Assembly: GCF_036227565.1 (NCBI RefSeq)
Contig: NZ_CP109460.1
Coordinates: 434,001-498,000, forward strand
DNA length: 64,000 nucleotides
Direction: 5' to 3'
From: Streptomyces sp. NBC_01454
Lineage (GTDB): Bacteria > Actinomycetota > Actinomycetes > Streptomycetales > Streptomycetaceae
Shown: in pieces, positions 36,194-54,858 of the stretch
Layout of the letters: every line of letters begins with the position of its first letter
Numbering within the stretch: the first letter of the stretch is position 1
Position numbers and translations under genes: made by a program
Notes under the pieces: model-generated
The model's database searches: none
What the model was told of the DNA's origin: nothing
Seen by the model: only the letters and a program-made list of their open reading frames with translations

Positions 36194-36198
36194 CACCC

Positions 36199-37308
36199 AT
36201 GCCCTCCCTCGACACCCCCCGAGCCGGGTCGGCCGAGGCCGGCGCCCCGCCCGCCGTCCGGCTCGACTCGATCAGCAAGACCTACGGCAACTCCTCCGCG
36301 GTCGACGACCTCTGCCTGGACATCGCCCCCGGTGAGTTCTTCTCCCTGCTGGGCCCGTCCGGCTGCGGCAAGACCACCTCGCTGCGGATGATCGGCGGCT
36401 TCACCGACCCCACCGCCGGCACCGTCCTGCTGAGCGGCGAGGACGTCACCGCGCTCCCGCCGGACAAGCGCAACGTCAATACGGTCTTCCAGAGTTACGC
36501 CCTCTTCGACCATCTCTCGGTGGCCGACAACGTGGCCTTCGGCCTCAAGCGCAAGGGCGTCGGCCGGGCCGAGATCCGCACCCGGGTGGCGGCCATGCTG
36601 GAGCGGGTGCAGCTCGGCGAACTCGGCGACCGCAAGCCCGGCACGCTCTCCGGCGGGCAGCGGCAGCGGGTGGCCCTGGCCCGCGCCCTGGTCAACCGAC
36701 CCCAGGTGCTGCTGCTGGACGAGCCGCTGGCCGCGCTCGACCTCAAGCTGCGGCGACGGATGCAGGTCGAACTCAAGCAGATCCAGCGCGAGGTCGGCAT
36801 CACCTTCGTCTTCGTCACCCATGACCAGGACGAGGCGCTGACCATGTCGGACCGGGTGGCGGTGATGAACGAGGGCCGGGTGGAGCAGTGCGGCACGCCG
36901 GAGGACGTCTACGAACACCCCGCGAGCCGCTTCGTGGCGTCCTTCATGGGGACGTCCAACCTCGTCCCCGGCACCTACCGCGACGGGCAGGTGGTCCTCG
37001 ACTGCGGCCCCACGCTGCCGGTCGGCCCGCGCAGCGACGTCGCCGACGGCAGCGCCGTCAGTCTGTCGGTCCGGCCGGAGAAGATCTGGCTCTCCGACTT
37101 CGAACCCGGCATGGCCCTGGTACGGGGAGTGGTCCGCGAGACCGTCTACTCCGGCCCCACCACCACCTATCTGATCGAACTCGCCCCCGACGTCACGGTG
37201 TCCGTGCTGGAACAGAACACCGACCGCTCCCGCATGGAGGACCGCTGGTGCGGCGGCGAGAGCGTGGAGATCGGCTGGCGGCCCGAACACTGTCTGGTCC
37301 TCGAGTAG
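36199..37308 (+). CDS. Polyamine-type ABC ATPase (PotA-like)
   Basis: A 369-residue ATPase: Walker A GPSGCGKTT, Q-loop FQSYALF, signature LSGGQRQRVALARAL, Walker B LLLDEPLAALD, H-loop THDQDEAL, and the C-terminal TOBE regulatory domain. I take the ATG at 36199 because GGGAAG is 8 nt upstream, rather than the GTG overlapping the stop. Confidence 0.92.
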   Translation: MPSLDTPRAGSAEAGAPPAVRLDSISKTYGNSSAVDDLCLDIAPGEFFSLLGPSGCGKTTSLRMIGGFTDPTAGTVLLSGEDVTALPPDKRNVNTVFQSYALFDHLSVADNVAFGLKRKGVGRAEIRTRVAAMLERVQLGELGDRKPGTLSGGQRQRVALARALVNRPQVLLLDEPLAALDLKLRRRMQVELKQIQREVGITFVFVTHDQDEALTMSDRVAVMNEGRVEQCGTPEDVYEHPASRFVASFMGTSNLVPGTYRDGQVVLDCGPTLPVGPRSDVADGSAVSLSVRPEKIWLSDFEPGMALVRGVVRETVYSGPTTTYLIELAPDVTVSVLEQNTDRSRMEDRWCGGESVEIGWRPEHCLVLE

Positions 37309-37322
37309 CCGCCCGGCCCGGG

Positions 37323-37339
37323 CCGGTCCGCCGGACCGG
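37323..37339 (+). promoter_or_regulatory. Hairpin between transporter and oxidase genes
   Basis: CCGGTCC-GCC-GGACCGG within a longer imperfect GC-rich stem in the 78-bp gap after the ATPase gene. Possible partial terminator or processing site. Confidence 0.45.
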
Positions 37340-37386
37340 GCCGGCCGCCCTCAGCCGCCCCACCGACAGCAAAGGAACGCCCCCTG

Positions 37387-38700
37387 ATGAACCACGACGT
37401 CATCGTGCTCGGCGCCGGCCTCGCCGGACTCGCCGCGGCACGGGACCTGAGCGCGGCCGGCGCCGATGTGCTCGTCCTGGAGGCCCGTGACCGGGTCGGC
37501 GGACGCGTCGAACAGGCCGTGCTGCCCGACGGCCGGCTGGTCCAGCTCGGCGGAGAGGTGGTCGGCCGGGCACACACCGCCTATCTCGCGCTGGCCGCGG
37601 AGCTCGGACTGACCCTCGTGCCCAGCTATGTCGCCGAGCCCGGCCGGATGGCGCGGGCCACCGCGGAAGGGGTCTCAGCCGGCGACCCGCCGCACTGGTT
37701 CGGCCCCGGCGACCAGACCTGTCACGAGCAGGTCACCGAGGCGTTCGTGGCGCTGGCACGGACCGTCGACCCCGAGGACCCGTGGTCCCTTCCGCACGCC
37801 GCGGCCCTCGACCGGTTGTCGGTCGGTGCCTGGCTGCGCGGCGAGGGGGCGAGCCCGGCCGTCGTACGGCTCTGGGAGATCGGTCAACTGGCCCTGGCCA
37901 GCGGCTCCTGCGAGCGCACCTCCCTGCTCGCCGCGCTGCGCAAGCACGCCGCCGTCCCCGGTGACGACCCCTACGCCTACGAGGACTGGGAAGGGCTGCG
38001 GGTGGCCGAGGGCTCGGCGACCGTGGCGCTGCGGATGGCGGCGGAACTCGGCCATCGCATCCGCCTCTCGGCACCGGTCACAGAGGCCGCGGTGCGCCCG
38101 GGCGGCTGCCGGGTGCGGCTGGCCGGCGGGGAGACCCTGGCCGCGGACGCACTGGTCAGCGCGCTGCCGGTGGGCCCGCTCCGCTCGGTGGCCGTCACCG
38201 GGGTCTCCGATGCCCGCCTCGCCTCGCTGCACCGTCAGCGCCAGGCCGTCGCCGCGAAGTTCGCGGCGGCCTACGACAAGCCCTTCTGGCGCAGCCTGGA
38301 CCTCAACGGCCTCTCCGAATGCGAGGGCGTGCTCGGCAGCACCTGGCCGCAGAGCGAGGGCATCCTGTCCGCACTGATCCCTCCGGAGCGCTACGGCGTC
38401 CTGCTGGGGATGCCCGCCGCGGTCCGTGACCAGGAGCTGCTGTCCGACGTGGCCCGTCTCTACGGCCCGGAGGCGCTCCAGCCGTTCACGTCGTATCTGC
38501 GCATGTGGGGCACCGACCCGTGGACCCAGGGCTATGTCACGCACTGGAGCCCCGGCGACGTGATGGCGGTCGGCCCGCTGCACGGCACCCATGAACCGCC
38601 CTTCTACATCTGCGGATCGGACCAGTGGGTGGCCGGCTACATGGAAGGCGCAGTGCGCACCGGGCGCGCGGCGGCGCGGGAGGTGCTGCGCCATGGCTGA
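37387..38700 (+). CDS. Flavin amine oxidase
   Basis: A 437-residue flavin monoamine oxidase-type protein with the FAD motif VLGAGLAGLAAARDL (about 8-22), RVGGRVEQ and a C-terminal YICGSDQWVAGYMEGAVRTGR that closes the FAD site. It should oxidise the amine brought in by the Pot-like system to an aldehyde, with H2O2 or a carrier. It overlaps the aldehyde dehydrogenase gene by 8 nt. Confidence 0.9.
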   Translation: MNHDVIVLGAGLAGLAAARDLSAAGADVLVLEARDRVGGRVEQAVLPDGRLVQLGGEVVGRAHTAYLALAAELGLTLVPSYVAEPGRMARATAEGVSAGDPPHWFGPGDQTCHEQVTEAFVALARTVDPEDPWSLPHAAALDRLSVGAWLRGEGASPAVVRLWEIGQLALASGSCERTSLLAALRKHAAVPGDDPYAYEDWEGLRVAEGSATVALRMAAELGHRIRLSAPVTEAAVRPGGCRVRLAGGETLAADALVSALPVGPLRSVAVTGVSDARLASLHRQRQAVAAKFAAAYDKPFWRSLDLNGLSECEGVLGSTWPQSEGILSALIPPERYGVLLGMPAAVRDQELLSDVARLYGPEALQPFTSYLRMWGTDPWTQGYVTHWSPGDVMAVGPLHGTHEPPFYICGSDQWVAGYMEGAVRTGRAAAREVLRHG

Positions 38701-40126
38701 GCCGGCCGCCCCCTCCCCCGTCCTCAACCACATCGCCGGGGCCGACCGGCCGTCGGCCTCCGGCGCCTCGATGGCGCTCGTCAACCCCGCCACCGGCGCG
38801 GTGCACGGCAGCGCGCCCCGCTCCGGGCCGTCCGACACCGACGCGGCCTGCACGGCGGCACAGGCCGCCCTCGACGGCTGGTCCCTGACCACCCCCGCGC
38901 AGCGGCAGCGGGCCCTGCTGGGGATCGCCGAGGCGATCGAGGCCCACGCCGACGCCCTGGTGGCCGCCGAGGTCGGGGACACCGGCAAGCCGCCCGGGCG
39001 GTTCCGGTCCGAGGAACTGCCCGCGGTCACCGACACGTTCCGCTTCTTCGCGGGGGCGGCGCGCAATCTCCCGGGGGCGGCCGCCGCCGAGTACACCGAG
39101 GGCCGCACCTCGGTGCTGCGGCGCGAACCGGTCGGGGTCTGCGCCCAGATCACCCCCTGGAACTACCCGCTGATGATGGCCGCGTGGAAGATCGCCCCGG
39201 CCCTCGCGGCAGGCAACACCTGTGTCCTCAAGCCCGCCGACACCACCCCTTCGTCGGCCGCGCTGCTCGCCCGGATCGCGGCGGAGCAGCTGCCGTCCGG
39301 GGTGCTCAATGTGGTCTGCGGTGACCGCGACACCGGCCGGTCGCTGACCGCGCACCCCGTGCCCCGTCTGATCGCGGTCACCGGCAGCGTCCGGGCGGGG
39401 CGGGAGATCGCTGCCACCGCCGCCGCGGACCTCAAGCGGGTGCATCTGGAACTGGGCGGGAACGCCCCGGTCGTCGTCCATGACGATGTGGACCTCGAGG
39501 CCACCGCGGCCGAACTGGCGGCCGTGGCCTACTACAACGCCGGCCAGGACTGCACCGCTGCCACCCGGCTGCTGGTGCACCGGCGGCGGTATGACGCCTT
39601 CGTCGCCGCGTTCGCCGCCCAGGCGCGCACGCTGCGCACCGGGCCGCCCGACGAGGCGCCGGCGGACTACGGACCGCTCAACAGCGCGACTCAACTTGCC
39701 TCTGTACAGGGCTTGTTGAGCCGTCTCCCGGCGCATGCGGAGGTGGTGACGGGAGGAGCCGCGGCCGGGCGGGCGGGCTGGTTCCACGAGCCCACGGTGG
39801 TCGCCGGGGTGCGGCAGGGCGACAAGATCGTGCAGGAGGAGATCTTCGGCCCGGTCGTCACCGTGCAGCCCTTCACCGACGAGGACGAGGCCCTGCGGCT
39901 GGCGAACGGGGTCCGGTTCGGTCTGGCGGCGAGCGTGTGGACCGGCGACCACGGGCGGGCCATGCGGGCCACCCGGGCGCTGCACACCGGGATCGTCTGG
40001 GTGAACACCCATGGCACCACCGTCTCGGAGATGCCGCACGGCGGGGTCAAGCACTCCGGCTACGGCAGCGATCTGTCCCTGGCGGGCCTGCTGGACTACA
40101 CCCAGGTCAAGCACGTCATGCTGTGA
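38693..40126 (+). CDS. Aldehyde dehydrogenase (gamma-aminobutyraldehyde DH-like)
   Basis: A 477-residue NAD(P) aldehyde dehydrogenase: PWNYPLMMAAWKIAPALAAG, general base E253 (LELGGNAP), nucleophile C287 (GQDCTAATR) and EEIFGPVV. It follows the amine oxidase with overlapping reading frames, so it would convert the resulting aldehyde to an acid. Resemblance to aminobutyraldehyde dehydrogenases is by family and context. Confidence 0.9.
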   Translation: MAEPAAPSPVLNHIAGADRPSASGASMALVNPATGAVHGSAPRSGPSDTDAACTAAQAALDGWSLTTPAQRQRALLGIAEAIEAHADALVAAEVGDTGKPPGRFRSEELPAVTDTFRFFAGAARNLPGAAAAEYTEGRTSVLRREPVGVCAQITPWNYPLMMAAWKIAPALAAGNTCVLKPADTTPSSAALLARIAAEQLPSGVLNVVCGDRDTGRSLTAHPVPRLIAVTGSVRAGREIAATAAADLKRVHLELGGNAPVVVHDDVDLEATAAELAAVAYYNAGQDCTAATRLLVHRRRYDAFVAAFAAQARTLRTGPPDEAPADYGPLNSATQLASVQGLLSRLPAHAEVVTGGAAAGRAGWFHEPTVVAGVRQGDKIVQEEIFGPVVTVQPFTDEDEALRLANGVRFGLAASVWTGDHGRAMRATRALHTGIVWVNTHGTTVSEMPHGGVKHSGYGSDLSLAGLLDYTQVKHVML

Positions 40127-41081: not shown

Positions 41082-41483
41082 GCGCCCACCTCCTGGTCGG
41101 CCACCCGGTCACCGGGCGGTGCCGCGCCGGTCCTCGGGCGGGGCGGTGTGGCGCCGTGGTGGGCTTCGACGCTATCGGCAGCCGGCGCCGACGCCCCGCC
41201 GACACGGACGCCGGGCGGCCGCATTCGCTGAGCTGGACGGTGGTCGCCGGGGTGGCGGGGCCGCGGACCGGGTTCCGCGCGGCCGTGTCCGGGGTGCCGC
41301 GTCACCGTGTCCGTTTGCGCTGTCGTCCGGCCACGTCCGGAGTGTCGTCCGACCGTGTCCCGGGTGGCAGATCTTGCCTCGTCGGCGGCGAACGAGCAGG
41401 TCACAGCCGTCGGCCGGCCGGCGGCAGGTGGCGCAATAGTGCGGCAACACCACTGGCCGGATCCGGTCGGTATGGTCCACCGC
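41082..41483. other. Intergenic region upstream of the GntR gene with degenerate repeats
   Basis: 402 bp without a gene. It contains four spaced copies of CCGTGTCC or CCACGTCC (41283, 41306, 41331, 41353 approx.), 21-27 bp apart. The element spacing of about two helical turns suggests a multi-site binding region upstream of the regulator gene. Confidence 0.45.
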
Positions 41484-42254
41484 ATGCCAGCCGAACGCAC
41501 CCGCCAGCACACCACACCGGTCGCTGCCGCCCGCCGGCGCCGGCTCCGTGCGGACCGCGCCCGGCAGCTCGCCGACCTGCTGCGCCACCAGGTGCTCGCG
41601 GGCCGCTTCCCCGACGGCGTCCTGCCGCACGAGGAGGAGATCGGCACGGACTTCGGCGCGTCGCGCAACACCGTGCGCCAGGCCCTGGACCTGCTGCGCG
41701 CCGAACAGCTCGTGGCCCGCCAGCCGGGTGTGGGCACGGTCGTGGTGTGCCGCAAGTACCCGCATGCCCTGGACCGGTTGCAGGGGCTCGCCGAGACCCT
41801 GCAACCGCACGGCAGGGTCACCAATGAGGTACGCACCCTCAGCCCGGTTGCCGCACCGGGCCCGGTGGCGGACCGGCTGCGGATCCCGCCGCGCAGCGAC
41901 GTGCTGTATGTGGAGCGGCTGCGCCGGCTGGACGGTCTGCCGCTGTCCCTGGACCTCACCTATGTCCCGATGGACCTCGGTCTGTCGCTGCTCGACGCCG
42001 ACCTGGAGAACAACGATGTGTTCCGGCTGATCGAGGAGGCCGCCGGACAGCCGCTGGGCACCGCCGAGATCAGCCTGGAGGCCGTCAACGCCGATGCGCA
42101 CTCCGCCGCCGTGCTGGAAGCGCCGCGCGGCACCGCCCTGCTGATGCTGGAGCGCCTCACCCAGCTCGCCGACGGCTCCCCCGTCGACCTGGAGTTCATC
42201 CGCTTCCGCGGGGACCGCCTCACCATGCGGGGCCTGCTGCGCCGCACGCTCTGA
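41484..42254 (+). CDS. GntR-family regulator with UTRA domain
   Basis: A 256-residue GntR/HutC regulator. The winged HTH is at about 22-90 (ADLLRHQVLAGRFPDGVLPH, GASRNTVRQALDLLRAE) and the UTRA effector domain follows (about 100-250: VLYVERLRRLDGLPLSLDLT, PLGTAEISLEAV). No ribosome site precedes the ATG at 41484, but a TATGGT box lies 7 nt upstream, so the mRNA is probably leaderless. It heads the ferredoxin-transporter-flavoprotein cluster and likely senses its substrate. Confidence 0.9.
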   Translation: MPAERTRQHTTPVAAARRRRLRADRARQLADLLRHQVLAGRFPDGVLPHEEEIGTDFGASRNTVRQALDLLRAEQLVARQPGVGTVVVCRKYPHALDRLQGLAETLQPHGRVTNEVRTLSPVAAPGPVADRLRIPPRSDVLYVERLRRLDGLPLSLDLTYVPMDLGLSLLDADLENNDVFRLIEEAAGQPLGTAEISLEAVNADAHSAAVLEAPRGTALLMLERLTQLADGSPVDLEFIRFRGDRLTMRGLLRRTL

Positions 42255-42311
42255 GCCCCGCCGCCCCCTCTCGTCCCCCTCCGCCCTGCCCCGCCCTGCC
42301 CGGAGACCGCC

Positions 42312-42539
42312 ATGCCTCTTGTGCCCCAACGCGGCGACGTGCCCGTGACCATCGACGAGTCCCGGTGCATCGACGGCTGCACGCTGTGCGTCGACATGTG
42401 CCCGCTGGACTCGCTCGCCATCGACCCGTCGAGCAACAAGGCCTATATGCACGTCGACGAGTGCTGGTACTGCGGCCCGTGCGCCGCACGCTGTCCCACC
42501 GGCGCGGTCACGGTCAACATGCCCTACCTGCTGCGATGA
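42312..42539 (+). CDS. 2[4Fe-4S] ferredoxin (AprB-like)
   Basis: A 75-residue bacterial-type ferredoxin with eight cluster cysteines in two groups: CIDGCTLCVDMCP and CWYCGPCAARCP. The arrangement and the following C-terminus (TGAVTVNMPYL) resemble the electron-transfer subunit (AprB) of adenylylsulfate reductase, but without AprB's C-terminal tail. It is 57 bp after the regulator and is followed by a transporter and an AprA-like flavoprotein. Confidence 0.88.
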   Translation: MPLVPQRGDVPVTIDESRCIDGCTLCVDMCPLDSLAIDPSSNKAYMHVDECWYCGPCAARCPTGAVTVNMPYLLR

Positions 42540-42552
42540 GAGGCCTTTGACG

Positions 42553-44001
42553 ATGAGCTCCCGATTCCCGGGCTCCCGGTCCGCTCCGTTCCCCGTCACC
42601 TTCCCCTTCCCCGCCGTGTCCGCTCCCGCTTCCGCCCGCCGCCCGGCCGGTCGCCGGGCGCTGCGGGCGGCGCTCTCGGCCGCCCTGCTGATGGGCTCGC
42701 TCAGCGCCTGCGGCACCGCCGCGGACGCCTCGGACGGCAAGACCGTCACCGTGACCGTCGGCTACCAGTCCAAGACCATCAACACCGTCACCGCCGGCAC
42801 CCTGCTCCGCTCGCTGGGCTCCTTCGAACGTGCCCTGCGCGCCCAGGGCAGACGCGACGGCACGACGTACCGGGTGCGCTGGCAGGACTACGCGACCGGT
42901 GCGCCGATCACCGCGCAGATGGTCGCGGGCAAGGTCGACATCGGCTCGATGGGCGACTTCCCGCTGCTCCTCAACGCCGCCCGCGGCACGCAGCTGCGCG
43001 CCCCGACCCGGCTGGTGTCGGTCACCGGCTACAACCTGCGCGGAGCGCTCAACACCATTGTCACCAGGCCCGGTTCCACGCTGCGCGCGCTGGCGGACCT
43101 GCGCGGCAAGAACGTCTCCAGCAGCGTCGGCTCGGCCTCCGACGGCACACTCGTCCGGGCGCTGCGACAGGCCGGTATCGACCCGGAGCACGGCATCCAC
43201 AAGCTCAACCAGCAGCCGGCCGTCGGGGCCTCGGCGCTCCGGTCGGGCAGCGCGGACGCCCTCTCCCAGTTCGTCGCCTGGCCCGGGCTGCTCGCCTTCC
43301 AGGGCCAGGCGCGGGCGCTCTACGACGGGGGCGCGCTCGACCTGCCCACCTTCCACGGCGTGACCGTACGCGAGGCGTTCGCCACCCGGCACCCGGCCCT
43401 GGTGCGGGCGTTCCTGACCGCGCAGCGGGACGCGACGCGCTACCTGCGGGCCCATCCGGTCGACGCCGCCCGGAAGGTCGCCGCGGCCACCGGGCTGCCG
43501 CCCGAGGTGGTCTACCTCTACAACGGCTCCGGCGGCATCGCCACCTTCGATCCCACCCTCAAGCCGCGGCTGCTCGCCGCGCTGAAGAAGGACGTAGGGG
43601 TGCTGCGCGCGGCCCGGCTGACCGGACCGGTCGCTGTGGACTCCTTCGTCGACGACCGTTATCTCCGGCAGAGTTACGGCAGCGGCTACGCCAAGGCCGT
43701 GCGCGGCACCGCGCGTCCGTCGCCGGACGAGGTGTGGCTGCGCGGCGAGGACCGTACCCACAGCTTCGCCGGGCCTGCCGCCCTGCTGCGGTTCGCCGCC
43801 GCCCACCGCGGCACGGTGCGGGCCGCGTACACGGCCGATACGACGACCGGCAGCCGCTGGTTCGCCGACCGGTCGGTCTGGGTGCACGACGGGGCCCGGC
43901 TGCTGCCCTTCACCACCCGCGCCACCGCCGACTCCTGGACGCGCCGGCACCGCGGTGCCCGCACCGTCGGCTACGCCGCCGCGCTGGAGCTGGCCCGGTG
44001 A
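42553..44001 (+). CDS. ABC substrate-binding lipoprotein with C-terminal NosL-like extension
   Basis: A 482-residue protein. Residues 1-53 hold a long n-region, hydrophobic core and lipobox LSAC (C53). Residues about 62-385 are an SsuA/NMT1-type (nitrate/sulfonate/bicarbonate class) binding fold with VGYQSKTINTVTAG, GKVDIGSMGDFPLLL and RPGSTLRALADLRGK. The last 91 residues (392-482) resemble a NosL-type domain (FAGPAALLRFAAAHRGT, DTTTGSRWF, LLPFTTRATADSW), which in other proteins binds copper or is an accessory to metalloenzymes; the metal Cys/Met pair of true NosL is not seen. The ATG at 42553 is preceded by GAGAGG. The domain fusion is unusual. Confidence 0.8.
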   Translation: MSSRFPGSRSAPFPVTFPFPAVSAPASARRPAGRRALRAALSAALLMGSLSACGTAADASDGKTVTVTVGYQSKTINTVTAGTLLRSLGSFERALRAQGRRDGTTYRVRWQDYATGAPITAQMVAGKVDIGSMGDFPLLLNAARGTQLRAPTRLVSVTGYNLRGALNTIVTRPGSTLRALADLRGKNVSSSVGSASDGTLVRALRQAGIDPEHGIHKLNQQPAVGASALRSGSADALSQFVAWPGLLAFQGQARALYDGGALDLPTFHGVTVREAFATRHPALVRAFLTAQRDATRYLRAHPVDAARKVAAATGLPPEVVYLYNGSGGIATFDPTLKPRLLAALKKDVGVLRAARLTGPVAVDSFVDDRYLRQSYGSGYAKAVRGTARPSPDEVWLRGEDRTHSFAGPAALLRFAAAHRGTVRAAYTADTTTGSRWFADRSVWVHDGARLLPFTTRATADSWTRRHRGARTVGYAAALELAR

Positions 44002-44894
44002 GCGCGCCCACGACCACGCCCGGCGCCCCCGGGCGGACGGGCCCGCGCCCGGCGCCCTGGGCCCGGCACGCCCGGCGTACCGCTGCGCTCCTCGCGGCGC
44101 TCGCGCTGTGGCAGTTGCTCGCCCAGTTCCGGGTGCACCTGTGGCTGCGGTTCTCGCAGTTCCCGACGGTCATCGAGACGGCCCGGGAGTCCGCCCGCCG
44201 GCTCGGTACCGGCGCCTACTGGCAGGACGTGTCCGAAAGCCTGACCCGGATCGTCGGTGGCTTCGCCCTCGCCGCCGTCCTGGGCGTCGCCGTCGGCACC
44301 GCCCTCGCCCGCTCCGCCCTGGCCTTCGATCTGCTCGGCCCGCTGCTCGAAGTGCTGCGCCCGATACCGGCGATCGCGCTGGTGCCGGTGGCGATCCTGC
44401 TGTTCCCCAGCAATGAACAGGGCATCGTCTTCATCACCTTCGCCGCGGCGTTCTTCCCCATCACGGTCTCCACCCGGCATGCGGTGCGGGCGCTGACGCC
44501 GGTCTGGGAGGAAGCGGTCCGCACCATGGGCGCGGGCCGGTGGCGGGTGCTGTGGTCGGTGGTGCTGCCGGGGGCGCTGCCCGGCATCCTCGGCGGGCTG
44601 TCGGTCGGCGTCGGTGTCTCGTGGATCTGTGTGATCTCCGCCGAGATGATCTCCGGTGAGTACGGCGTGGGCTACCGCACCTGGCAGGACTACACCGTCC
44701 TCGACTACCCGGGCGTCTTCGTCGGGATGGCCACCATCGGCCTGCTCGGCCGGCTCACCTCCACCGGGGTGGAGCTGCTGGGCCGGCGCCTGACCCGGTG
44801 GCTGCCGCGGACGGCGGACGGCCCGGGCCCGGTGGCCGCGGTGCGGCGGACCCGGTGGCGAAGGGCCCGCACGGTAGCGGAGGGATCGTCATGA
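43998..44894 (+). CDS. SsuC/TauC-type ABC permease
   Basis: A 298-residue permease of the nitrate/sulfonate/taurine class. It has an N-terminal tail, about six helices, EEAVRTMGAGRWRVLWSVVLP (EAA loop) and ISAEMISGEYGVGYRTWQDYT. The GTG start overlaps the binding-protein stop (GTGA). Confidence 0.9.
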   Translation: MSAPTTTPGAPGRTGPRPAPWARHARRTAALLAALALWQLLAQFRVHLWLRFSQFPTVIETARESARRLGTGAYWQDVSESLTRIVGGFALAAVLGVAVGTALARSALAFDLLGPLLEVLRPIPAIALVPVAILLFPSNEQGIVFITFAAAFFPITVSTRHAVRALTPVWEEAVRTMGAGRWRVLWSVVLPGALPGILGGLSVGVGVSWICVISAEMISGEYGVGYRTWQDYTVLDYPGVFVGMATIGLLGRLTSTGVELLGRRLTRWLPRTADGPGPVAAVRRTRWRRARTVAEGSS

Positions 44895-45697
44895 CCGACA
44901 CCGAGCTCTCCCCGGCGGCCCCCGCGCAGACCGGTGCCCCGGGCCTGCGGCTGACCCTCGCCGATGCCGCGCTCGGCCGGCCCGGCGCCCCCGTGCTGCA
45001 CGGCTTGGACCTCGACGTCGCCGCGGGCGAGATCCTCACCGTCGTCGGCCCGTCCGGCTGCGGCAAATCCACCCTGCTGCGCACGCTGGCGGGTCTGCTG
45101 CCCCCGCTCGGCGGCCGGCTGAGCCAGGACGGCGCACCCGTCGCGGGCCCCGCCGCCGACCGTGCGCTGATCTTCCAGGAGGACGCGCTGCTGCCCTGGC
45201 GCACCCTGCGGGCCAATGTGGAACTCCCGCTGGCCATCCGCGGCGTGGCCCGCCCGGCGCGCCGGGCACGGGCCGGCGAATGGCTGGCCCGGGTCGGCCT
45301 GACCGCCCATGCCGGCCGCCTGCCGCACCAGGCCTCCGGCGGCCAGCGGCAGCGCGCCCAGCTGGCGCGTGCGCTGGCCGGACGGCCGCGCGCGGTCCTG
45401 ATGGACGAACCCTTCGGGGCGCTCGATGCCCAGACCCGGGCCGATATGCAGCAGTTGCTGGTGACGGCGCTGAGCGGCACCCGGGCCACCGTCGTCTTCG
45501 TCACCCATGACGTGGACGAGGCGCTGTTCCTGGGTGACCGGGTCGCGCTGCTGGGCACCGGCCGGGTGCTGGACGTCCCGCGGCCCCGGGCACGCGCGGC
45601 GCAGGCCGAACCGGCGACGGCCGCGCTGCGCCGCGAGGTCCTGGCCTCCCTGGGCGGCCGGGCCGAGGCCCGGCCCGGCGCCCCTCGCCCGGCGTGA
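44891..45697 (+). CDS. SsuB/TauB-type ABC ATPase
   Basis: A 268-residue ATPase: Walker A GPSGCGKST, Q-loop FQEDALLPWRTL, signature SGGQRQRAQLARAL, Walker B LMDEPFGALD, H-loop THDVDEAL. LLPW after the Q-loop is typical of the nitrate/sulfonate family. ATGA overlap with the permease. Confidence 0.92.
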   Translation: MTDTELSPAAPAQTGAPGLRLTLADAALGRPGAPVLHGLDLDVAAGEILTVVGPSGCGKSTLLRTLAGLLPPLGGRLSQDGAPVAGPAADRALIFQEDALLPWRTLRANVELPLAIRGVARPARRARAGEWLARVGLTAHAGRLPHQASGGQRQRAQLARALAGRPRAVLMDEPFGALDAQTRADMQQLLVTALSGTRATVVFVTHDVDEALFLGDRVALLGTGRVLDVPRPRARAAQAEPATAALRREVLASLGGRAEARPGAPRPA

Positions 45698-45720
45698 CCC
45701 GCCCTGACCGCTGTGACCGG

Positions 45721-45736
45721 CACGTCGTGTGACGTG
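45721..45736 (+). promoter_or_regulatory. Inverted repeat ahead of the AprA-like gene
   Basis: CACGTC-GTGT-GACGTG, perfect 6-bp arms, in the 62-bp gap between the ATPase and the flavoprotein. It could be a regulator half-site pair or an mRNA element. Confidence 0.4.
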
Positions 45737-45759
45737 ACCGGCGACCGAAAGGCACCGCC

Positions 45760-48528
45760 ATGGACACCACGGAAGCCATGGAGATCCCCTCCCCCGACAC
45801 CGCCGAGGAACTGTCCTGCGACGTCCTCGTCATCGGCGGCGGCACCGCCGGGACCATGGCGGCGCTCACCGCCGCCGAACAGGGCGCCTGCGTCCTGCTG
45901 CTGGAGAAGGCGCACGTGCGGCACTCCGGTGCGCTCGCCATGGGCATGGACGGGGTCAACAACGCCGTCATCCCGGGCCGCGCGGAACCCGACGACTATG
46001 TCGCCGAGATCACCCGCGCCAACGACGGCATCGTCGACCAGTCCACCGTCCGGCAGACCGCGACCCGCGGCTTCGCGATGGTGCGGCGGCTGGAGTCCTA
46101 CGGCGTGAAGTTCGAGAAGGACGAGCACGGCGCGTACGCGGTCCGCCGGGTGCACCGCTCCGGGTCGTATGTGCTGCCGATGCCGGAGGGCAAGGACGTC
46201 AAGAAGGTCCTCTACCGACAGTTGCGGCGGCGCGAGATGCGCGAGCGGATCCGCATCGAGAACCGCATCATGCCGGTGCGGGTGCTGACCGCCGGCGGCC
46301 GGGCGGTCGGCGCGGCGGGTTTCCACACCCGTACGGGACGGTTCGTCACGGTCCGCGCCGGTGCGGTGATCCTCGCCACCGGCGCCTGCGGCCGCCTCGG
46401 CCTGCCCGCCTCCGGCTATCTGTACGGCACCTACGAGAACCCCACCAATGCCGGCGACGGCTACGCCATGGCCTACCACGCGGGCGCCGAACTCACCGGC
46501 ATCGAGTGCTTCCAGATCAACCCGCTGATCAAGGACTACAACGGCCCGGCCTGCGCCTATGTCGCCAATCCCTTCGGCGGCTACCAGGTCAACCGGCACG
46601 GTGCGCGGTTCGTGGAATCCGATTACTGGTCGGGGCAGATGATGGCGGAGTTCGCGGCCGAGGTCGCCTCCACACGGGGACCGGTCTACCTGAAGCTCAG
46701 TCACCTCCCGGAGGAGTCCGTCGCCGCCCTGGAGACGATCCTGCACACCACGGAACGCCCCACCCGGGGCACCTTCCATGCCGGACGCGGCCACGACTAC
46801 CGCACCCACGACGTGGAGATGCACATCTCCGAGATCGGTCTGTGCGGCGGGCATTCGGCGTCCGGCGTGCGCGTCGACGACCGTGCCCGCACGACCGTGC
46901 CGGGGCTGTACGCGGCCGGCGACCTGGCCTGCGTCCCGCACAACTACATGATCGGGGCATTCGTCTTCGGTGACCTGGCCGGCGAGGACGCCGCACAACA
47001 CCGGGCGTACCAGGGCGAGTTGCCCGTCGAGCAAGTGCGCGCCGCCCATGAGCTGATCTACCGTCCGCTGCGCCACCCCGACGGCCCGCCGCAGCCCCAG
47101 GTCGAATACAAGCTCCGTCGTTTCGTCAACGACTATGTCGCCCCGCCAAAGAGCGGCGCCCGGCTGTCGCTGGCCGTCGAGCACTTCACCCGGATGCACT
47201 CCGATATCGCCGCCATGGGGGCCCGCACCCCGCACGAGCTGATGCGCTGCGCCGAGGTCACCTTCATCCGCGACTGCGCCGAGATGGCCGCCCGCTCGTC
47301 GCTGGCCCGTACCGAGTCCCGCTGGGGCCTCTACCACGCGCGCACGGACCACCCGAAGACCGATGACCGCGACTGGCTGCACCACCTCGACCTGCGCAAA
47401 TCGGCCACCGGAGCAATGGAGTTCACCGCCCGCCCGGTGGCGCCGTACCTCGTCCCGGTCGACGAGTACACCCCTGTGGGCGGCGCCTCCCGCTTCCTCG
47501 GCGAGGTCCATCCGGAACAGGTCGCGACGGCGGGTCGGCGGGACACCCCGCCGGTGGGGTCCACGGGCGCGGTTGCGGACGGCGGGACGGCCGGTGTCCC
47601 CGTCGGCGACGCCGCCGGGGACGGCACTCCCCCCTCCCCCCGCATCCTCGAACTCCTCGCCCTCACCGAGGACCAGCCGGACCTCCCGGCGCTGCGCCCC
47701 TACCTGGCCGATCCCGACCCGGCCGTCCGCCGGGCCGCGGTCGACGCACTCACCGAGAGCGTCCCGCCGGGTACGGGCCCGGCCCTCGCCACCGCCCTCG
47801 CCGATCCCGCCCCGGCCGTCCGGGCCGCCGCCGGCGCCTCCCTGCGCGAACTGGTCGAGGTGCTCCCGCCGGCGGCCGGCCTGCGGACCCCGCTGGCCGC
47901 GGCCGTGCACGGGCCGGACGCCGTCGTCCGGTCGGCGGCCGTGGAGGTGCTGCGCGCGCTCCGTCTCGGCGACCGGGCGCTGTTCGCCGACGCGCTCGGC
48001 GACCCGGCCGTGGACGTACGCCTCCAGGCCGTCCGGGCCCTGGTCTCCGTCGACGCCCCGCACGACCTGCGGCGGGCCGCCGAGGACGACTCCCGTGAGG
48101 TGCGGGTGGCCGCCGCGCAGGGGCTCGGTACGGTCGGCCGGCCCGAGGAGCTGGCGGCGTTCCTGCCCGACGCCGATCCCCTCGTCCGCGCCGCGGCGCT
48201 CACGGCGCTGGCCACGGCCGGCTGCCCGCCGCCGTACGACGCGGCGGCCGTCGCGGCGCTCGGCGATCCCGCCTGGCAGGTCCGCGCCGGTGCCGCCACG
48301 GCCCTGGCCGCCGCCGGCTCCCCCACCGCCGTGACCGCGCTCTCCGCCGCGCTCGGCGACCCGCACGCGGACGTGCGCAAGGCCGCGGTGCTCGCGCTGC
48401 GCGCCCACGCCGGCCGCGCGGACGCCCGCCGGGCCCTGGCCTCGGTCGCCGACGACCCGGACGCCGATGTCCGGGCCTACGCCCGCCCGGCGGCGAACCC
48501 GGCGGCGAACCCGGCAGCAAAGGGGTGA
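45760..48528 (+). CDS. AprA/fumarate-reductase-like flavoprotein with HEAT-repeat tail
   Basis: A 922-residue fusion. Residues about 20-590 form an FAD flavoprotein of the fumarate reductase/AprA superfamily: VLVIGGGTAGTMAAL (FAD), SGALAMGMDGVNNAV, ILATGACGRLGLP, YENPTNAGDGYAMAYHAGAELTG, CGGHSASGVRVDD and GLYAAGDLACVPHNYMIG. GGHSASG aligns with the conserved His-bearing loop of AprA. After a Gly/Pro linker (about 590-626) comes a run of HEAT/PBS-lyase-like repeats to the C-terminus (PAVRRAAVDAL, AVRAAAGASLREL, DVRLQAVRAL, EVRVAAAQGLGTVG, QVRAGAATALAAAG). The ferredoxin at 42312 is the presumed redox partner. A role in oxyanion or sulfur-compound chemistry is inferred from AprA homology and the transporter. 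Confidence 0.85.
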   Translation: MDTTEAMEIPSPDTAEELSCDVLVIGGGTAGTMAALTAAEQGACVLLLEKAHVRHSGALAMGMDGVNNAVIPGRAEPDDYVAEITRANDGIVDQSTVRQTATRGFAMVRRLESYGVKFEKDEHGAYAVRRVHRSGSYVLPMPEGKDVKKVLYRQLRRREMRERIRIENRIMPVRVLTAGGRAVGAAGFHTRTGRFVTVRAGAVILATGACGRLGLPASGYLYGTYENPTNAGDGYAMAYHAGAELTGIECFQINPLIKDYNGPACAYVANPFGGYQVNRHGARFVESDYWSGQMMAEFAAEVASTRGPVYLKLSHLPEESVAALETILHTTERPTRGTFHAGRGHDYRTHDVEMHISEIGLCGGHSASGVRVDDRARTTVPGLYAAGDLACVPHNYMIGAFVFGDLAGEDAAQHRAYQGELPVEQVRAAHELIYRPLRHPDGPPQPQVEYKLRRFVNDYVAPPKSGARLSLAVEHFTRMHSDIAAMGARTPHELMRCAEVTFIRDCAEMAARSSLARTESRWGLYHARTDHPKTDDRDWLHHLDLRKSATGAMEFTARPVAPYLVPVDEYTPVGGASRFLGEVHPEQVATAGRRDTPPVGSTGAVADGGTAGVPVGDAAGDGTPPSPRILELLALTEDQPDLPALRPYLADPDPAVRRAAVDALTESVPPGTGPALATALADPAPAVRAAAGASLRELVEVLPPAAGLRTPLAAAVHGPDAVVRSAAVEVLRALRLGDRALFADALGDPAVDVRLQAVRALVSVDAPHDLRRAAEDDSREVRVAAAQGLGTVGRPEELAAFLPDADPLVRAAALTALATAGCPPPYDAAAVAALGDPAWQVRAGAATALAAAGSPTAVTALSAALGDPHADVRKAAVLALRAHAGRADARRALASVADDPDADVRAYARPAANPAANPAAKG

Positions 48529-48709: not shown

Positions 48710-49834
48710 ATGTCCCGTCCGTCCCCGGAGTGGCCCCGCTACGTCGAGTTCGCGCCGACCGTCCTGGTCGCCGCGGGACTCCTCTGGGACGTGTTCTCGC
48801 CCGCGGACTACTGGGGTGACCCGATGCTCATCGCGGCGAGCGTGACGGCCGGTGCGCTGCTCTCCCTACGGCACACCCTGACGATCGGCGCCGTCATCAT
48901 CGTCGGTGTCTTCGTACTGACGGTGAAGGACGGCACCGCCAACGACATCGTGGGGCATGTGGAGCTCATCAACACCGTCTTCGCCGCGCTCATGGGCGTC
49001 GGTGTCAACCGGGTGGTGGCCCGGCACGGACGCCGCCTGGACGTCGTCCGCACGGTGGCCGAGGCCGCCCAGCGCGCCGTCCTCCCCGCGCCCCCGAAAC
49101 GCATCGGCCCGCTGACCGTCGCCGCCCGCTACCAGGCCGCCCAGAGCCAGGCCCGGATCGGCGGGGACGCCTACGCCGTGCAGCGCACCCCGTTCGGCGT
49201 CCGGCTGCTGATCGCCGACGTACGCGGCAAGGGGCTGGGCGCGGTAAGTGCCGTGTCCGTGCTGCTGGGTGCGTTCCGCGAGGCGGCCGAGCAGGAACCG
49301 GACCTCACGACGGTGGCCGACCGGATGGAGCGCGCCCTGCTCCGGGAGAGCGAGCAGACCTCCGAGGAGGACCGTCTGGAAGGCTTCATCACGGCCCTGG
49401 TCTGCGAAGTCCTCCCGGGCGGCAGCGGGCTGCGGCTGCTGGACTGCGGCCATCCCGCGCCCTACCTCTGCCAGGGCGGTGAGGTGCGCCCCCTGGAGAC
49501 CCGCGATCCGGGTCTCCCCCTCGGCATCGGGACGCTGGGCGCGGCGCGGACCGCACCGGCCGACTGGCCGTTCCCGGCGGGCAGCACACTGCTGCTGGTC
49601 ACCGATGGGGTGACCGAGGCCCGCAACCGTGCCGGCACGTTCTACGACCCGGCGGAACAGCTGACGGGCCGCGGCCCCTTCCGCGGCCCCCAGGACCTGA
49701 TCGACGTGCTGGTGCGGGACGTCGAGCGCTGGACCGGCGGGCCGCGCGACGACGACATGGCGGTCCTGGCGATCGGCCGGCAGGCGGAGGGCCGCCGCCG
49801 GTTCCGGAACGGCGGGAACGGCGCGGAGCGCTGA
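48710..49834 (+). CDS. Membrane-anchored SpoIIE/PP2C serine phosphatase
   Basis: A 374-residue protein with three or four N-terminal membrane helices (about 15-110) and a PPM/SpoIIE phosphatase domain (about 130-360). Metal-site motifs: GGDAYAV, DVRGKG, TDGVTEARN and DDDMAVLAIG. Such proteins act on anti-anti-sigma factors of stress sigma systems. No partner is next to it. Confidence 0.88.
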   Translation: MSRPSPEWPRYVEFAPTVLVAAGLLWDVFSPADYWGDPMLIAASVTAGALLSLRHTLTIGAVIIVGVFVLTVKDGTANDIVGHVELINTVFAALMGVGVNRVVARHGRRLDVVRTVAEAAQRAVLPAPPKRIGPLTVAARYQAAQSQARIGGDAYAVQRTPFGVRLLIADVRGKGLGAVSAVSVLLGAFREAAEQEPDLTTVADRMERALLRESEQTSEEDRLEGFITALVCEVLPGGSGLRLLDCGHPAPYLCQGGEVRPLETRDPGLPLGIGTLGAARTAPADWPFPAGSTLLLVTDGVTEARNRAGTFYDPAEQLTGRGPFRGPQDLIDVLVRDVERWTGGPRDDDMAVLAIGRQAEGRRRFRNGGNGAER

Positions 49835-51830: not shown

Positions 51831-51878
51831 GGCCGCACGGGCTTTTCGAGTGTGACCAAGAAGTGGGCCCGTGCGGCC
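51831..51878. repeat. Perfect 12-bp inverted repeat over the transposase start
   Basis: GGCCGCACGGGC (51831-51842) and GCCCGTGCGGCC (51867-51878) with a 24-nt loop that contains the transposase GTG at 51852. The folded mRNA would hide the start region. Confidence 0.65.
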
Positions 51879-52777
51879 TTGACCCATCCTGCCTTCCGCG
51901 GCGTCTCGCGTGCACATCTCGGCGATGTGATCGAAGAGTTGGCCGATCTGTGGCTCGCCCGGCGCGAGTCGCAGCTTCGTGAGCGGCGCGGTGCCGAGCG
52001 GCAGCGGGAGGCCGGTGCCGGCCCGAAGCACGACCTGGTCTTCACCGACCGCCTGATCGTCACCCTGGTCCGCCTACGCACCGGGCTCCCGCACGCCGCG
52101 CTCGCCGAGCTGTACGGCATCGCCCGCTCCACGATCTCCCGCGCCATCGGGGAGATCCGCCCGTTGCCGGCCAAGTGGCTTCGCCATCCCCGACCACTCC
52201 GGCGTGCGACTTCGGACCCTGGCGGACGTGTTCGCCTACGCCGAGGCCGCGGGGGCCCGGTTGCGGATCGACGGCGCCGAGACCCAGGTTCGCCGCCCGA
52301 AGGCAGGCAGGCCCGGACGGCGGGCCTTCGTCTCCGGCAAGAAGAAGCAGAACACCATCAAGACCACCACCATCAGCGACGGCCAGGGCCGTCTGCTGTG
52401 GTCGGGTGCGGACCGCCCGGGCCGCATGCACGACCAGACCGCGACGCGCACCGAGGGTATCGGCGAGCAGTTCCGGCTCCACCCGAAGGTGACGGCCGAG
52501 GTCGACGAGGGCTACCAGGGGCTACCGGGGGCTGGCCAACGAGTTTCTTGACCAAATCAGCGCCCCTCCGAAGCCGAAGGGCGACGCGCCGCTCGGCGAG
52601 CAGTACGCCTGGCGGGAGATGCGCCGACGGCAGTCCTCGCAGCGGATCTGCATCGAGCACGCCAACGCCGCATTGCGGCAGTGGTGCCCGCTCCAGCGCT
52701 ACACCGGCCCACGCGAGGACTACGCCGCGACCCGCCAGGCCAGCACGCCCAAACCGCCATCGCGGACCAAGTCGTGA
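51852..52777 (+). pseudogene. IS5-like transposase remnant, frameshifted
   Basis: A decayed DDE transposase of the HTH_Tnp_4/DDE_Tnp_4 type. Frame 1 has the HTH part (FTDRLIVTLVRLRTGLPHAA, ARSTISRAIGEIRPL). The frame changes near 52160-52180 to GFAIPDHSGVRLRTL, with the catalytic Asp in RIDGAETQV and another in VDEGYQGL. A 10-bp duplication at 52511-52530 shifts the frame again; the third frame has the Glu-region ICIEHANAALRQW and ends at 52777. At least two frameshifts make it inactive. No clear long terminal inverted repeats were found. Confidence 0.82.
52511..52530. repeat. 10-bp tandem duplication inside the transposase
   Basis: GCTACCAGGG followed directly by GCTACCGGGG (9 of 10 identical). 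One copy is needed for the normal GYRGLANEF reading; the extra 10 bp breaks the frame. Confidence 0.8.
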
Positions 52778-53052: not shown

Positions 53053-54858
53053 GTGCGTAGACCCCACATACGCAGACACCGTCTGGCGATCGCCGTCGCC
53101 GTGACGACGGCCGCGACGCTCACCGCGGGAGTGGCGAGCGCCGCCTCCGCCACCACCGAGACCGCACCGGCCGCTGCGCCCGCCGCGACGTCCTCCCTCC
53201 AGAAGGTCGTGAACGCCGCCCGCGAGGCCGCCGTCGCGCACGCCGCGGCCACCGGAGTGGGCAAGAAGGACACCCTCAAGGCCACGGACACCCTCGTGGA
53301 CCCCGACGGCCGGCAGCACGTCCGCTTCGTCCGGACCCACCGCGGGCTTCCGGTGCTCGGCGGCGACCTCGTCATCCACCTGACCGCCAAGTCGGCGTAC
53401 GAGGGCGTGACCCGGGCCTACCGCCACCAGGTCGACGTGGCCGACACGGACCCGAAGCTGTCGGCCCGGGAGGCGCAGTCGAAGGCCGCCACCGTCGCCA
53501 AGGGCCAGGCCGGCGACGCCGAACTGATCGTGGACGCCCGCGACGACCGGACCACGCTCGCCTACCAGGTCCAGGTGGACGACAGCCGCACCGCCGAGGC
53601 CGACGGTGCCCGTACCGTCATCCTCGACGCGGCCACCGGGGCGGTGCTCAGCAACACCCCGGCCAACGACTCCTTCCTGTCGCCCGCACTGCAGAAGAAG
53701 CTGCGCGCACGGGGCGAGCACCTCAACCCCTCGACCGGGCTGGCCGCCCCCGCGGCACCCGTCAGCCCCGAGGCGGCGGCGACCCCCGGCTACCCGGCCG
53801 CGGCCAAGGGCACCGGTTCGTCCCTGTTCGTCGGCACGGTGCAGCTGTCCACCACCCGGACGGCGAAGAAGTCCTTCACGCTCAAGGACTCCACCCGCGG
53901 CAACACCGAGACCCGGGACGCCGGAAACAAGGAGCCGGAGAAGTTCTCCGACAGCAAGGCGTTCACCAGCACCACCAACCGCTGGGGCAACGGCACCACG
54001 AGCAGCCGGGCCACCGCCGCCGTGGACGCCCAGTACGGCATCAGCAGCACCCTCGACTTCTACAAGAAGACGTTCGGCCGCAAGGGCATCAACAACGACG
54101 GCCGCGGGGCCCACGCCCTGGTGCACTTCGGCAAGAAGGTCGGCAACGCCTACTGGTCGTCCGACTGCGGCTGCATGCTCTACGGCGACGGTGACGGCGC
54201 GACGTTCGCCAAGCCCCTGGTCGTCCTGGACGTCACGGGCCATGAGCTCACGCACGGCGTGGTCGACGCGACGGCCAAGCTCCGGCCCACCCGCGTCGAC
54301 GGGGAGGGCAACCAGTACGGCGAGCCGGGCGCCCTCAACGAGTCGCTGGCGGACATCTTCGGCAGCGCGGTCGAGTTCTCGACCAACAACCCGAAGAACC
54401 CGCCGAATTACCTGATGGGCGAGAAGCTCGGCCTCCAGCAGAAGTTCCTGCGCCGCCTGGACAAGCCCTCCCTGGACAAGCTGGAGGGCACCGTCGACTA
54501 CTGGTCGAAGGCGGCCTACGACACCGAGGTGCACGCCGGTTCCGGTATCTCCTCGCACGCCTTCTACCTGCTGGCCGAGGGCAGCGGGAAGAAGACCATC
54601 GGCGGTGTCGCCTATGACTCCCCCACCCACGACGGCTCCAAGGTGACCGGCATCGGGCGGACCAAGGCGACGGCGATCTTCTACCGGGCGCTCACCCGGT
54701 ACATGGTCTCCACGACCGACTTCCATGACGCGCGGGCCGCGACCCTGCACGCGGCCAAGGACCTGTACGGCGCCTCCAGCACCGCGTACAAGACGGTGGA
54801 CAAGGCCTGGTCCGCGGTGAACGTGACGGCGGCCAACTCGCCCTCCGCCAAGCACTGA
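53053..54858 (+). CDS. Secreted M4 (thermolysin-like) metalloprotease
   Basis: A 601-residue preproenzyme. Signal peptide about 1-33 (GVASAASA). The FTP/PepSY-type propeptide follows (about 50-215, HVRFVRTHRGLPVLGGDL). The catalytic domain has the zinc site H397ELTH401 (VTGHELTHGVVDATA), third ligand E430 in GALNESLADIFG, and the active-site His in HAGSGISSHAFYL. The loop between HELTH and the Glu is 9 residues longer than in thermolysin. GTG start at 53053. It has its own strong terminator. Confidence 0.92.
   Translation: MRRPHIRRHRLAIAVAVTTAATLTAGVASAASATTETAPAAAPAATSSLQKVVNAAREAAVAHAAATGVGKKDTLKATDTLVDPDGRQHVRFVRTHRGLPVLGGDLVIHLTAKSAYEGVTRAYRHQVDVADTDPKLSAREAQSKAATVAKGQAGDAELIVDARDDRTTLAYQVQVDDSRTAEADGARTVILDAATGAVLSNTPANDSFLSPALQKKLRARGEHLNPSTGLAAPAAPVSPEAAATPGYPAAAKGTGSSLFVGTVQLSTTRTAKKSFTLKDSTRGNTETRDAGNKEPEKFSDSKAFTSTTNRWGNGTTSSRATAAVDAQYGISSTLDFYKKTFGRKGINNDGRGAHALVHFGKKVGNAYWSSDCGCMLYGDGDGATFAKPLVVLDVTGHELTHGVVDATAKLRPTRVDGEGNQYGEPGALNESLADIFGSAVEFSTNNPKNPPNYLMGEKLGLQQKFLRRLDKPSLDKLEGTVDYWSKAAYDTEVHAGSGISSHAFYLLAEGSGKKTIGGVAYDSPTHDGSKVTGIGRTKATAIFYRALTRYMVSTTDFHDARAATLHAAKDLYGASSTAYKTVDKAWSAVNVTAANSPSAKH

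Follow-up and report, generated by a model that had tools for sequence, protein, structure and literature searches.

What does a flavoprotein do that is named a fumarate reductase in databases, is encoded with a small AprB-like ferredoxin and a sulfonate-type transporter, and is controlled by a regulator of its own? The question is raised by six genes, all on the + strand, at positions 41484-48528 of a stretch of 64,000 nucleotides (the window; contig NZ_CP109460.1, positions 434,001 to 498,000) from the 9.46-Mb genome of Streptomyces sp. NBC_01454. Its nearest named proteins (97%) come from S. sioyaensis. In a preliminary description, made from the letters alone, the operon had been read as a regulator, ferredoxin, transporter and flavoprotein cluster with a redox pair like AprBA, which carries out adenosine 5'-phosphosulfate (APS)/sulfite chemistry. 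The reading favoured here, at a probability of roughly 0.4, is that the product of the operon is a flavoenzyme of AprBA architecture, coupled to ferredoxin, which no longer acts on APS or 3'-phosphoadenosine 5'-phosphosulfate (PAPS) and reduces an imported organosulfur compound with release of sulfite, under its own GntR/UTRA repressor. The operon is real, widely conserved and, as far as the searched literature goes, uncharacterised. No description of it was found in the open-licence literature, which was covered mostly by indirect word searches, with subscription papers outside the scope. The available passages of sulfur-source studies in Rhodococcus and Gordonia (PMC8557817, PMC7661421) name no such flavoprotein, and those of PMC11941057 name Bradyrhizobium sulfonate genes.

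Relationship of the flavoprotein and the ferredoxin

The flavin adenine dinucleotide (FAD) protein (gene 45760-48528, 922 amino acids; domains FAD_binding_2, Succ_DH_flav_C and HEAT repeats) was a full member of NF010374 (PRK13800; 1599.2 bits, cut-off 1196) and of NF006131 (PRK08275; 857.3 bits, cut-off 587), and was the only protein of the source genome above the NF010374 cut-off. No tested function was found behind the fumarate reductase label of these two families. The cut-off of the AprA model TIGR02061 (641.75) was not reached by its 122.9 bits, the best piece in the genome search scoring 82 bits. The nearest solved structure by sequence was the PAPS reductase (PAPSR) of Methanothermococcus thermolithotrophicus (8A8O; 184.8 bits), an enzyme described in the accessible part of PMC10322725. 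A profile search (profile A1) gave 282.9 bits for the alpha subunit of 8a8o, 203.7 for AprA and 136.3 for succinate dehydrogenase (SDH). An unrooted tree of 31 proteins fell into three groups, AprA with PAPSR, the present flavoprotein family, and SDH-type proteins, and the branches separating them were fully supported; being unrooted, it does not name the sister group of the family.

Along with its two [4Fe-4S] motifs, the ferredoxin has the tryptophan through which AprB passes electrons to FAD; this residue aligned with a tryptophan of the 3gyx_B AprB and was found in 123 of 123 relatives (CWYC in 120, CWFC in 3). With PAPSR and AprA as the best solved relatives of the flavoprotein and the AprB tryptophan kept in its partner, the AprBA-like redox pair of the preliminary description was upheld.

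The substrate pocket

All residues were mapped by sequence alignment, and the sample of 123 family members, from which the PAPSR-like protein of locus L111 (match below 300 bits) was excluded, is skewed to close relatives of the query. Passages of PMC2211403 assign N74, W234, R265 and H398 of AprA to the sulfate group, R317 and L278 to the adenine and G274 and H446 to the channel; Q145 was taken as a further site residue from passages of PMC10322725. Equivalents of N74, H398 and H446 were retained in 123/123 members. Five positions were replaced in every member, with one replacing residue per site (Q145V, W234Y, R265L, G274C and R317M), and the position of L278 was occupied by A, T or G. All eight AprA proteins retained all the AprA pocket residues compared, and both the Methanothermococcus PAPSR and the L111 protein retained N74, R265, W234, R317, G274 and H398. 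The R317 column is less sure: the separate 31-protein alignment leaves the window protein without a residue there, and neither alignment puts an arginine at this position. The alignment of APS-pocket residues that had been named as support for the preliminary description was therefore not obtained. Because five of these residues are replaced throughout and L278 is changed, APS chemistry appears unlikely for this flavoprotein. The pocket seems instead to have been rebuilt for a substrate other than APS or PAPS while its flavin end was kept. Since R265, R317 and W234 are lost, the substrate should be one without an adenylyl part, and since N74 and H398 are kept, an N5-sulfite adduct and release of sulfite could still occur.

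The catalytic residues of E. coli SdhA, which we take to be H242, T254, E255, R286, H354 and R399, were compared in the same way. No counterpart of H242, T254, E255, R286 or R399 was found in any of the 14 members aligned or in a profile alignment. H354 had none in the 14-member alignment, and in the profile alignment a nearly invariant histidine of the family (HISEIG) was placed on it. The SDH-type proteins of the source genome itself keep all six residues, except for T254, which is serine in the second of them. A fumarate reductase or SDH identity was rejected, five of the six residues being without counterpart. The preliminary description had also considered placement in an established clade with known substrates; what was found is a clade apart from both AprA/PAPSR and SDH, lacking at least five of the six SdhA catalytic residues.

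Locus L111 (15431-18670), from a metagenome-assembled genome (MAG) of the same phylum, joins a PAPSR-like AprBA pair to two genes identified by eye, one like sulfite reductase and one like TusA, and is likely an assimilatory (P)APS reduction set. Such neighbours are the company expected for a (P)APS reductase, and none of this kind was seen around the present flavoprotein family.

Distribution and conserved gene company

Gene company was scored by tblastn over 123 loci and from annotated records. Among 198 genomes of the phylum, the source genome included, eight had a match at E <= 1e-80, seven of them above the NF006131 cut-off and the eighth being the L111 protein; within a sample of the genus the flavoprotein was present in 42 of 121 genomes. 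The proteobacterial loci were the best 80 of at least 589 stretches encoding a relative in a scan of species genomes, in which one gene may give two stretches; they are skewed to Burkholderiales and Pseudomonas, and the query began with a Cupriavidus protein. From these at least 589 matched stretches, hundreds of bacterial genomes probably carry the flavoprotein. It was also found on 51 records of a plasmid collection (16 opened, one of these without annotation), among them Paraburkholderia, rhizobia, Methylocystis, Methylobacterium, Acinetobacter, Acidithiobacillus and cyanobacteria.

All six genes, with the HEAT part fused, were present in each of 27 actinobacterial genome loci; the recurrence of the gene order extended to 26 of 26 loci besides our own, 24 of the same genus and two of other genera within the class. 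In the 80 proteobacterial loci the ferredoxin was found in 80, the GntR regulator in 78, the HEAT protein in 77 (the other three on short contigs) and DUF971 in 66. The 16 plasmid-collection loci contained the ferredoxin in 16, the HEAT protein in 15, the transporter in 14, GntR in 7, DUF971 in 7, a Crp/Fnr regulator in 5 and a Mrp-type protein in 3. By these counts the core consists of flavoprotein, ferredoxin and HEAT protein, while the transporter is common and not obligatory in the same operon. The HEAT protein is likely a subunit, since it is fused to the flavoprotein in Actinobacteria.

On the Acidithiobacillus caldus plasmid pTcM1 (L020, 10102-14035) the module is directly followed by FdxA and an FAD oxidoreductase of 1153 amino acids, with an SsuABC-like permease and ATPase several kb beyond. 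On a Nostoc plasmid (L016, 8992-16401) genes for HAD hydrolases, a methyltransferase, GNAT and VOC proteins lie between flavoprotein and ferredoxin, and this larger cluster may serve as a pointer to the substrate. Two records that carry the label Acinetobacter phage (CAKLQF020000010 and CAKLQH020000018) and may be host contigs also encode the flavoprotein (57.9% identity).

The transporter

The substrate-binding protein (SBP), permease and ATPase were closest to models of the SsuABC/TauABC-type transporter group, all below curated cut-offs. With 117.2 bits against the SsuA family TIGR01728 (cut-off 163.5) the SBP is related to that family and not a certified member, and its matches included no sulfate/thiosulfate-binding model. 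Its NosL-like tail matched PF05573 weakly (13.5 bits, E 0.092; cut-off 24); of two homologues, that of Leptolyngbya passed this cut-off (29.2 bits) and that of Acinetobacter did not (19.6 bits). The import of a small compound, proposed in the preliminary description, is still plausible, although no full transporter was found in 28 of the 80 proteobacterial loci, three of them on short contigs.

Candidate control elements

Alignment of 29 actinobacterial upstream regions revealed a conserved two-part control region before gntR, followed by a -10-like box whose position makes a leaderless gntR start possible. The first part, GTGGCAGATCTT, had two exact copies in the source genome, the second at an unrelated place. 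Of 61 Streptomyces genomes, roughly 21 of them with the flavoprotein, seven contain the exact two-part pattern, a single time each and always at the operon; no second gene set bearing the element was found in the source genome or in these 61 genomes. The Streptomyces control region differs from that of Proteobacteria, where 77 of the 80 loci have a palindrome, CTTGTYATRACAAG or a near variant (half forms included), either ahead of gntR or in the interval from gntR to the flavoprotein gene. The palindrome is consistent with the HutC-class type of site. Elsewhere, its exact core TTGTYATRACAA occurred once in 1.56 Mb of proteobacterial loci, and that site (L035) precedes the operon's own SBP gene. 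In 15 whole genomes, 12 exact operator sites were found in 11 genomes, and coordinate comparison placed all 12 at copies of the operon. Two of them were in a Paucimonas MAG, which has two operon copies with an exact operator at each (L189 and L195). Sites with one mismatch were no commoner than a reversed-pattern control in several genomes and were therefore not counted as evidence; five such regions outside operons contained none of the module or marker proteins. As exact sites occurred only at operons, control seems to be restricted to this single operon.

Sulfur context

A family 2A encapsulin gene was found inside the locus, within 10 kb on each side, in 7 of the 80 proteobacterial loci, accompanied in most of the seven by a cysteine desulfurase cargo, CysE or rhodanese. 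This is the fair count, since the 34 genomes of which 13 had an encapsulin anywhere were hand-picked from the 80 with known encapsulin cases included. The chance of a single-copy gene lying within 20 kb of a 7-Mb genome is about 0.3%; several of the loci share ancestry, but their arrangements differ. According to passages of PMC8049743, the family 2A encapsulin of Synechococcus is raised under sulfur starvation. A second SsuABC-like set was located near 11 of the 80 loci; of 10 binding proteins from these sets, four were above the TauA cut-off, two above the SsuA-family cut-off and four above neither. These neighbours point to sulfur scavenging in some Proteobacteria, and the sulfur link rests on a minority of loci because markers and transporters occur in few of them.

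A sulfite exporter family gene (TauE/SafE) lay close by in two cyanobacteria and in Aquabacterium, and a TSUP gene about 6 kb upstream in an Acinetobacter record. As a general marker TauE/SafE failed, being found in 4 of 124 stretches, exactly the four that had supplied the queries. The flanks of the Streptomyces loci were uninformative: nuo-type genes were shared by 18 of 20 loci, and ten conserved flanking frames, some of which may not be genes, gave three Pfam matches (Proton_antipo_M twice and Peptidase_M48).

A CysH-type reductase was present in 53 of 55 operon-carrying genomes at E <= 1e-30 (31 of 55 above the curated cut-off), so the operon is no substitute for CysH, and this role was rejected. 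The source genome has PAPS_reduct proteins, its CysH match of 227.5 bits being slightly under the cut-off of 235.3.

Favoured reading and alternatives

In the favoured reading the operon represents a third branch of the AprBA architecture, whose most likely purpose is to obtain sulfur. In the mechanism that we propose, cellular ferredoxin, or NADPH via a ferredoxin-NADP reductase (FNR), would be the electron source for the AprB-like ferredoxin, and electrons would cross its two clusters and the conserved tryptophan to the FAD of the AprA-related subunit. FdxA and FNR genes lie beside one Methylobacterium cluster. The HEAT repeats, which belong to the flavoprotein chain in Actinobacteria and to a neighbouring gene elsewhere, would have a structural or docking role in the complex, and DUF971/Mrp partners, where present, would probably insert Fe-S clusters. 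The SsuABC-type transporter would import a small organosulfur compound, and the transporter class together with the neighbours suggests one that is sulfonate-like. The reduced flavin would attack this compound, sulfite would be freed for assimilation, and the GntR/UTRA repressor would release this single operon in the presence of its ligand. In its most specific form, as an oxygen-independent sulfonate reductase of wide distribution in which the nucleotide pocket has been replaced by a pocket for a small organosulfonate and a C-S or S-S bond is cleaved via an N5-sulfite adduct, the proposal is tentative and rather unlikely. If true, sulfite would be freed without the monooxygenases known for this task, by a third catalytic branch of AprBA with its own GntR switch.

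A number of observations weigh against the favoured reading. The full transporter was present in 52 of the 80 proteobacterial loci, and so not in every operon. FdxA was found in 2 of 124 loci and FNR in one. Among solved ferredoxins, methanogen polyferredoxins gave the best score against the ferredoxin (66.7 bits), ahead of AprB (37.7 and 30.9) and the beta subunit of PAPSR (28.9), although repeats raise the polyferredoxin scores. R265 is positively charged and invariant in AprA, and a family without it may catalyse a reaction of quite another kind; the equivalents of R317 and of SdhA H354 depend on the alignment. Sulfur markers of the encapsulin set were found in 9 of the 80 loci, one a weak cysteine desulfurase match (L035) and four from Paraburkholderia, and TauE in none of the 80. 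Sulfur genes were looked for beside the Streptomyces loci and none was seen, nor was one seen beside the operon of the window, whose upstream neighbours resemble a polyamine-use set. The literature searched yielded no expression, growth or enzyme data for the operon.

The same complex could act on an S-sulfonate, such as S-sulfocysteine, thiosulfate, a polythionate or a Bunte salt, with N5 of FAD taking the sulfonate, the thiolate leaving and sulfite being released. N74 and H398 are retained, on chemical reasoning a thiolate leaves far more readily than a carbanion, CysE, cysteine desulfurase and rhodanese genes lie near some loci, and for S-sulfocysteine the chemical fit is about equal to that of the favoured reading; the SBP, however, belongs to the SsuA/TauA/NMT1 group and matched no sulfate/thiosulfate-binding model. 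Such a substrate is considered unlikely. It is also quite unlikely that the same electron chain serves a small molecule without sulfur, for instance an N-oxide, a nitro compound or a metal or metalloid complex. This would agree with a pocket unlike both known branches, with the breadth of the SsuA/NrtA/NMT1 transporter group and with the Streptomyces loci, alongside which no sulfur genes were seen, but TauA/SsuA-type transporters and the sulfur-starvation encapsulin recur near the operon in several proteobacterial genera, in a minority of loci.

The database name would imply an enzyme like fumarate reductase or a dehydrogenase, with a C=C or C-C bond in an imported acid as its target. Superfamily membership, the NCBIfam name and the histidine placed on H354 by the profile are in line with it; the five missing SdhA residues and the separate SDH-type group in the tree make it very unlikely. 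That the enzyme is a genuine (P)APS reductase, whether assimilatory or reverse, was rejected as highly improbable in spite of the PAPSR and AprA relatives and the AprB tryptophan, given the five replaced pocket residues (all five kept in 8/8 AprA, and R265, W234, R317 and G274 in both PAPSR-like proteins), the unreached TIGR02061 cut-off, the CysH-type reductase already present in 53/55 genomes and the lack of neighbours like those of the L111 pair.

If the favoured reading is correct, AprBA-type chemistry would extend past sulfate metabolism into soil and plant bacteria, and the operon would be a testable candidate for oxygen-independent sulfur release from organosulfur compounds. The fumarate reductase name is contradicted by the residues, and a common misannotation would be corrected. 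With a regulator that seems confined to this one operon and a clear candidate operator, there is a direct route to the ligand.

Organisation of the operon and its neighbours

Gene calls and domain matches confirmed the six-gene set and the overlaps inside its transporter part (Table 1). The regulator scored 56 bits for GntR and 109.8 bits for UTRA in Pfam and was below the NCBIfam cut-offs examined; its start at ATG 41484 agrees with the upstream element conserved in relatives, the frame being already open from 41307. For the SBP, ATG 42553 is a likelier start than TTG 42547, both lying in the open frame. The permease start at 43998 overlaps the SBP stop by four bases, and the ATPase start at 44891 overlaps the permease stop in ATGA.

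Table 1. Coordinates of the operon and its candidate control elements within the window
Feature	Position	Strand	Basis or remark
Upstream element GTGGCAGATCTT, first part of conserved control region	41364..41375	+	In 16/29 upstream regions of Actinobacteria, also that of Nonomuraea
Second conserved part GTGGCGCAA..GGCAACACCAC, candidate operator	41428..41453	+	Alignment of 29 actinobacterial upstream regions
-10-like box GGTATGGT	41469..41476	+	7 bases 5' of gntR ATG; conserved alignment columns
GntR/UTRA (HutC-type) regulator	41484..42254	+	256 amino acids; Pfam PF00392 and PF07702
AprB-like 2[4Fe-4S] ferredoxin	42312..42539	+	75 amino acids; conserved Cys-Trp-Tyr-Cys
SsuA/NMT1-type lipoprotein (SBP), NosL-like C-terminal tail	42553..44001	+	Pfam/NCBIfam matches
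SsuC/TauC-type permease	43998..44894	+	Pfam/NCBIfam matches
SsuB/TauB-type ATPase	44891..45697	+	Pfam/NCBIfam matches
AprA-related flavoprotein domain (family PRK08275)	45760..47490	+	Residues 1-577
HEAT-repeat tail fused to flavoprotein	47620..48528	+	Separate gene in proteobacterial and cyanobacterial loci seen

Upstream of the operon, at 34517-40126, genes for an ATP-binding cassette permease, an ATPase with a TOBE domain, a flavin amine oxidase and an aldehyde dehydrogenase form a group that looks like a polyamine uptake and oxidation set. A SpoIIE-type phosphatase is encoded immediately 3' of the operon (48710-49834). Further downstream, a DDE transposase (HTH_Tnp_4, DDE_Tnp_4) is broken up over separate open reading frames at 51852-52551, probably a decayed insertion element, and a thermolysin-type M4 peptidase with its propeptide is encoded at 53053-54858. 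The window contained no tRNA genes and no Rfam matches at gathering scores.

Comparison with known systems

The families NF006131 and NF010374 are the flavoprotein's own, without any difference, under a generic fumarate reductase label. With the flavoprotein of SDH and fumarate reductase it shares the superfamily and the database name, whereas five SdhA catalytic residues are not conserved in the family and a small ferredoxin takes the place of the SdhB-type subunit. The SsuABC/TauABC importers provide the nearest models for the SBP, permease and ATPase; the proteins of the operon differ in staying below the curated cut-offs and in the extra NosL-like tail of the SBP. AprA relatives without the AprA-typical residues are already known from archaeal MAGs, according to passages of PMC7174415; the passages mention no operon or function for them. 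The Methanothermococcus PAPSR resembles the present enzyme in its small ferredoxin-like beta subunit and in an alignment covering almost the full catalytic length, and differs in retaining the equivalents of R265, W234 and R317 and in its gene company. The dissimilatory AprBA of Archaeoglobus fulgidus (2FJA/1JNR) likewise combines an FAD subunit with a 2[4Fe-4S] subunit and shares the AprB tryptophan and the equivalents of N74, H398 and H446. In contrast to it, the flavoprotein of the operon has leucine for R265, tyrosine for W234, methionine for R317, valine for Q145 and cysteine for G274, the ferredoxin has 75 amino acids instead of 150, and a fused or adjacent HEAT protein and a transporter are added.

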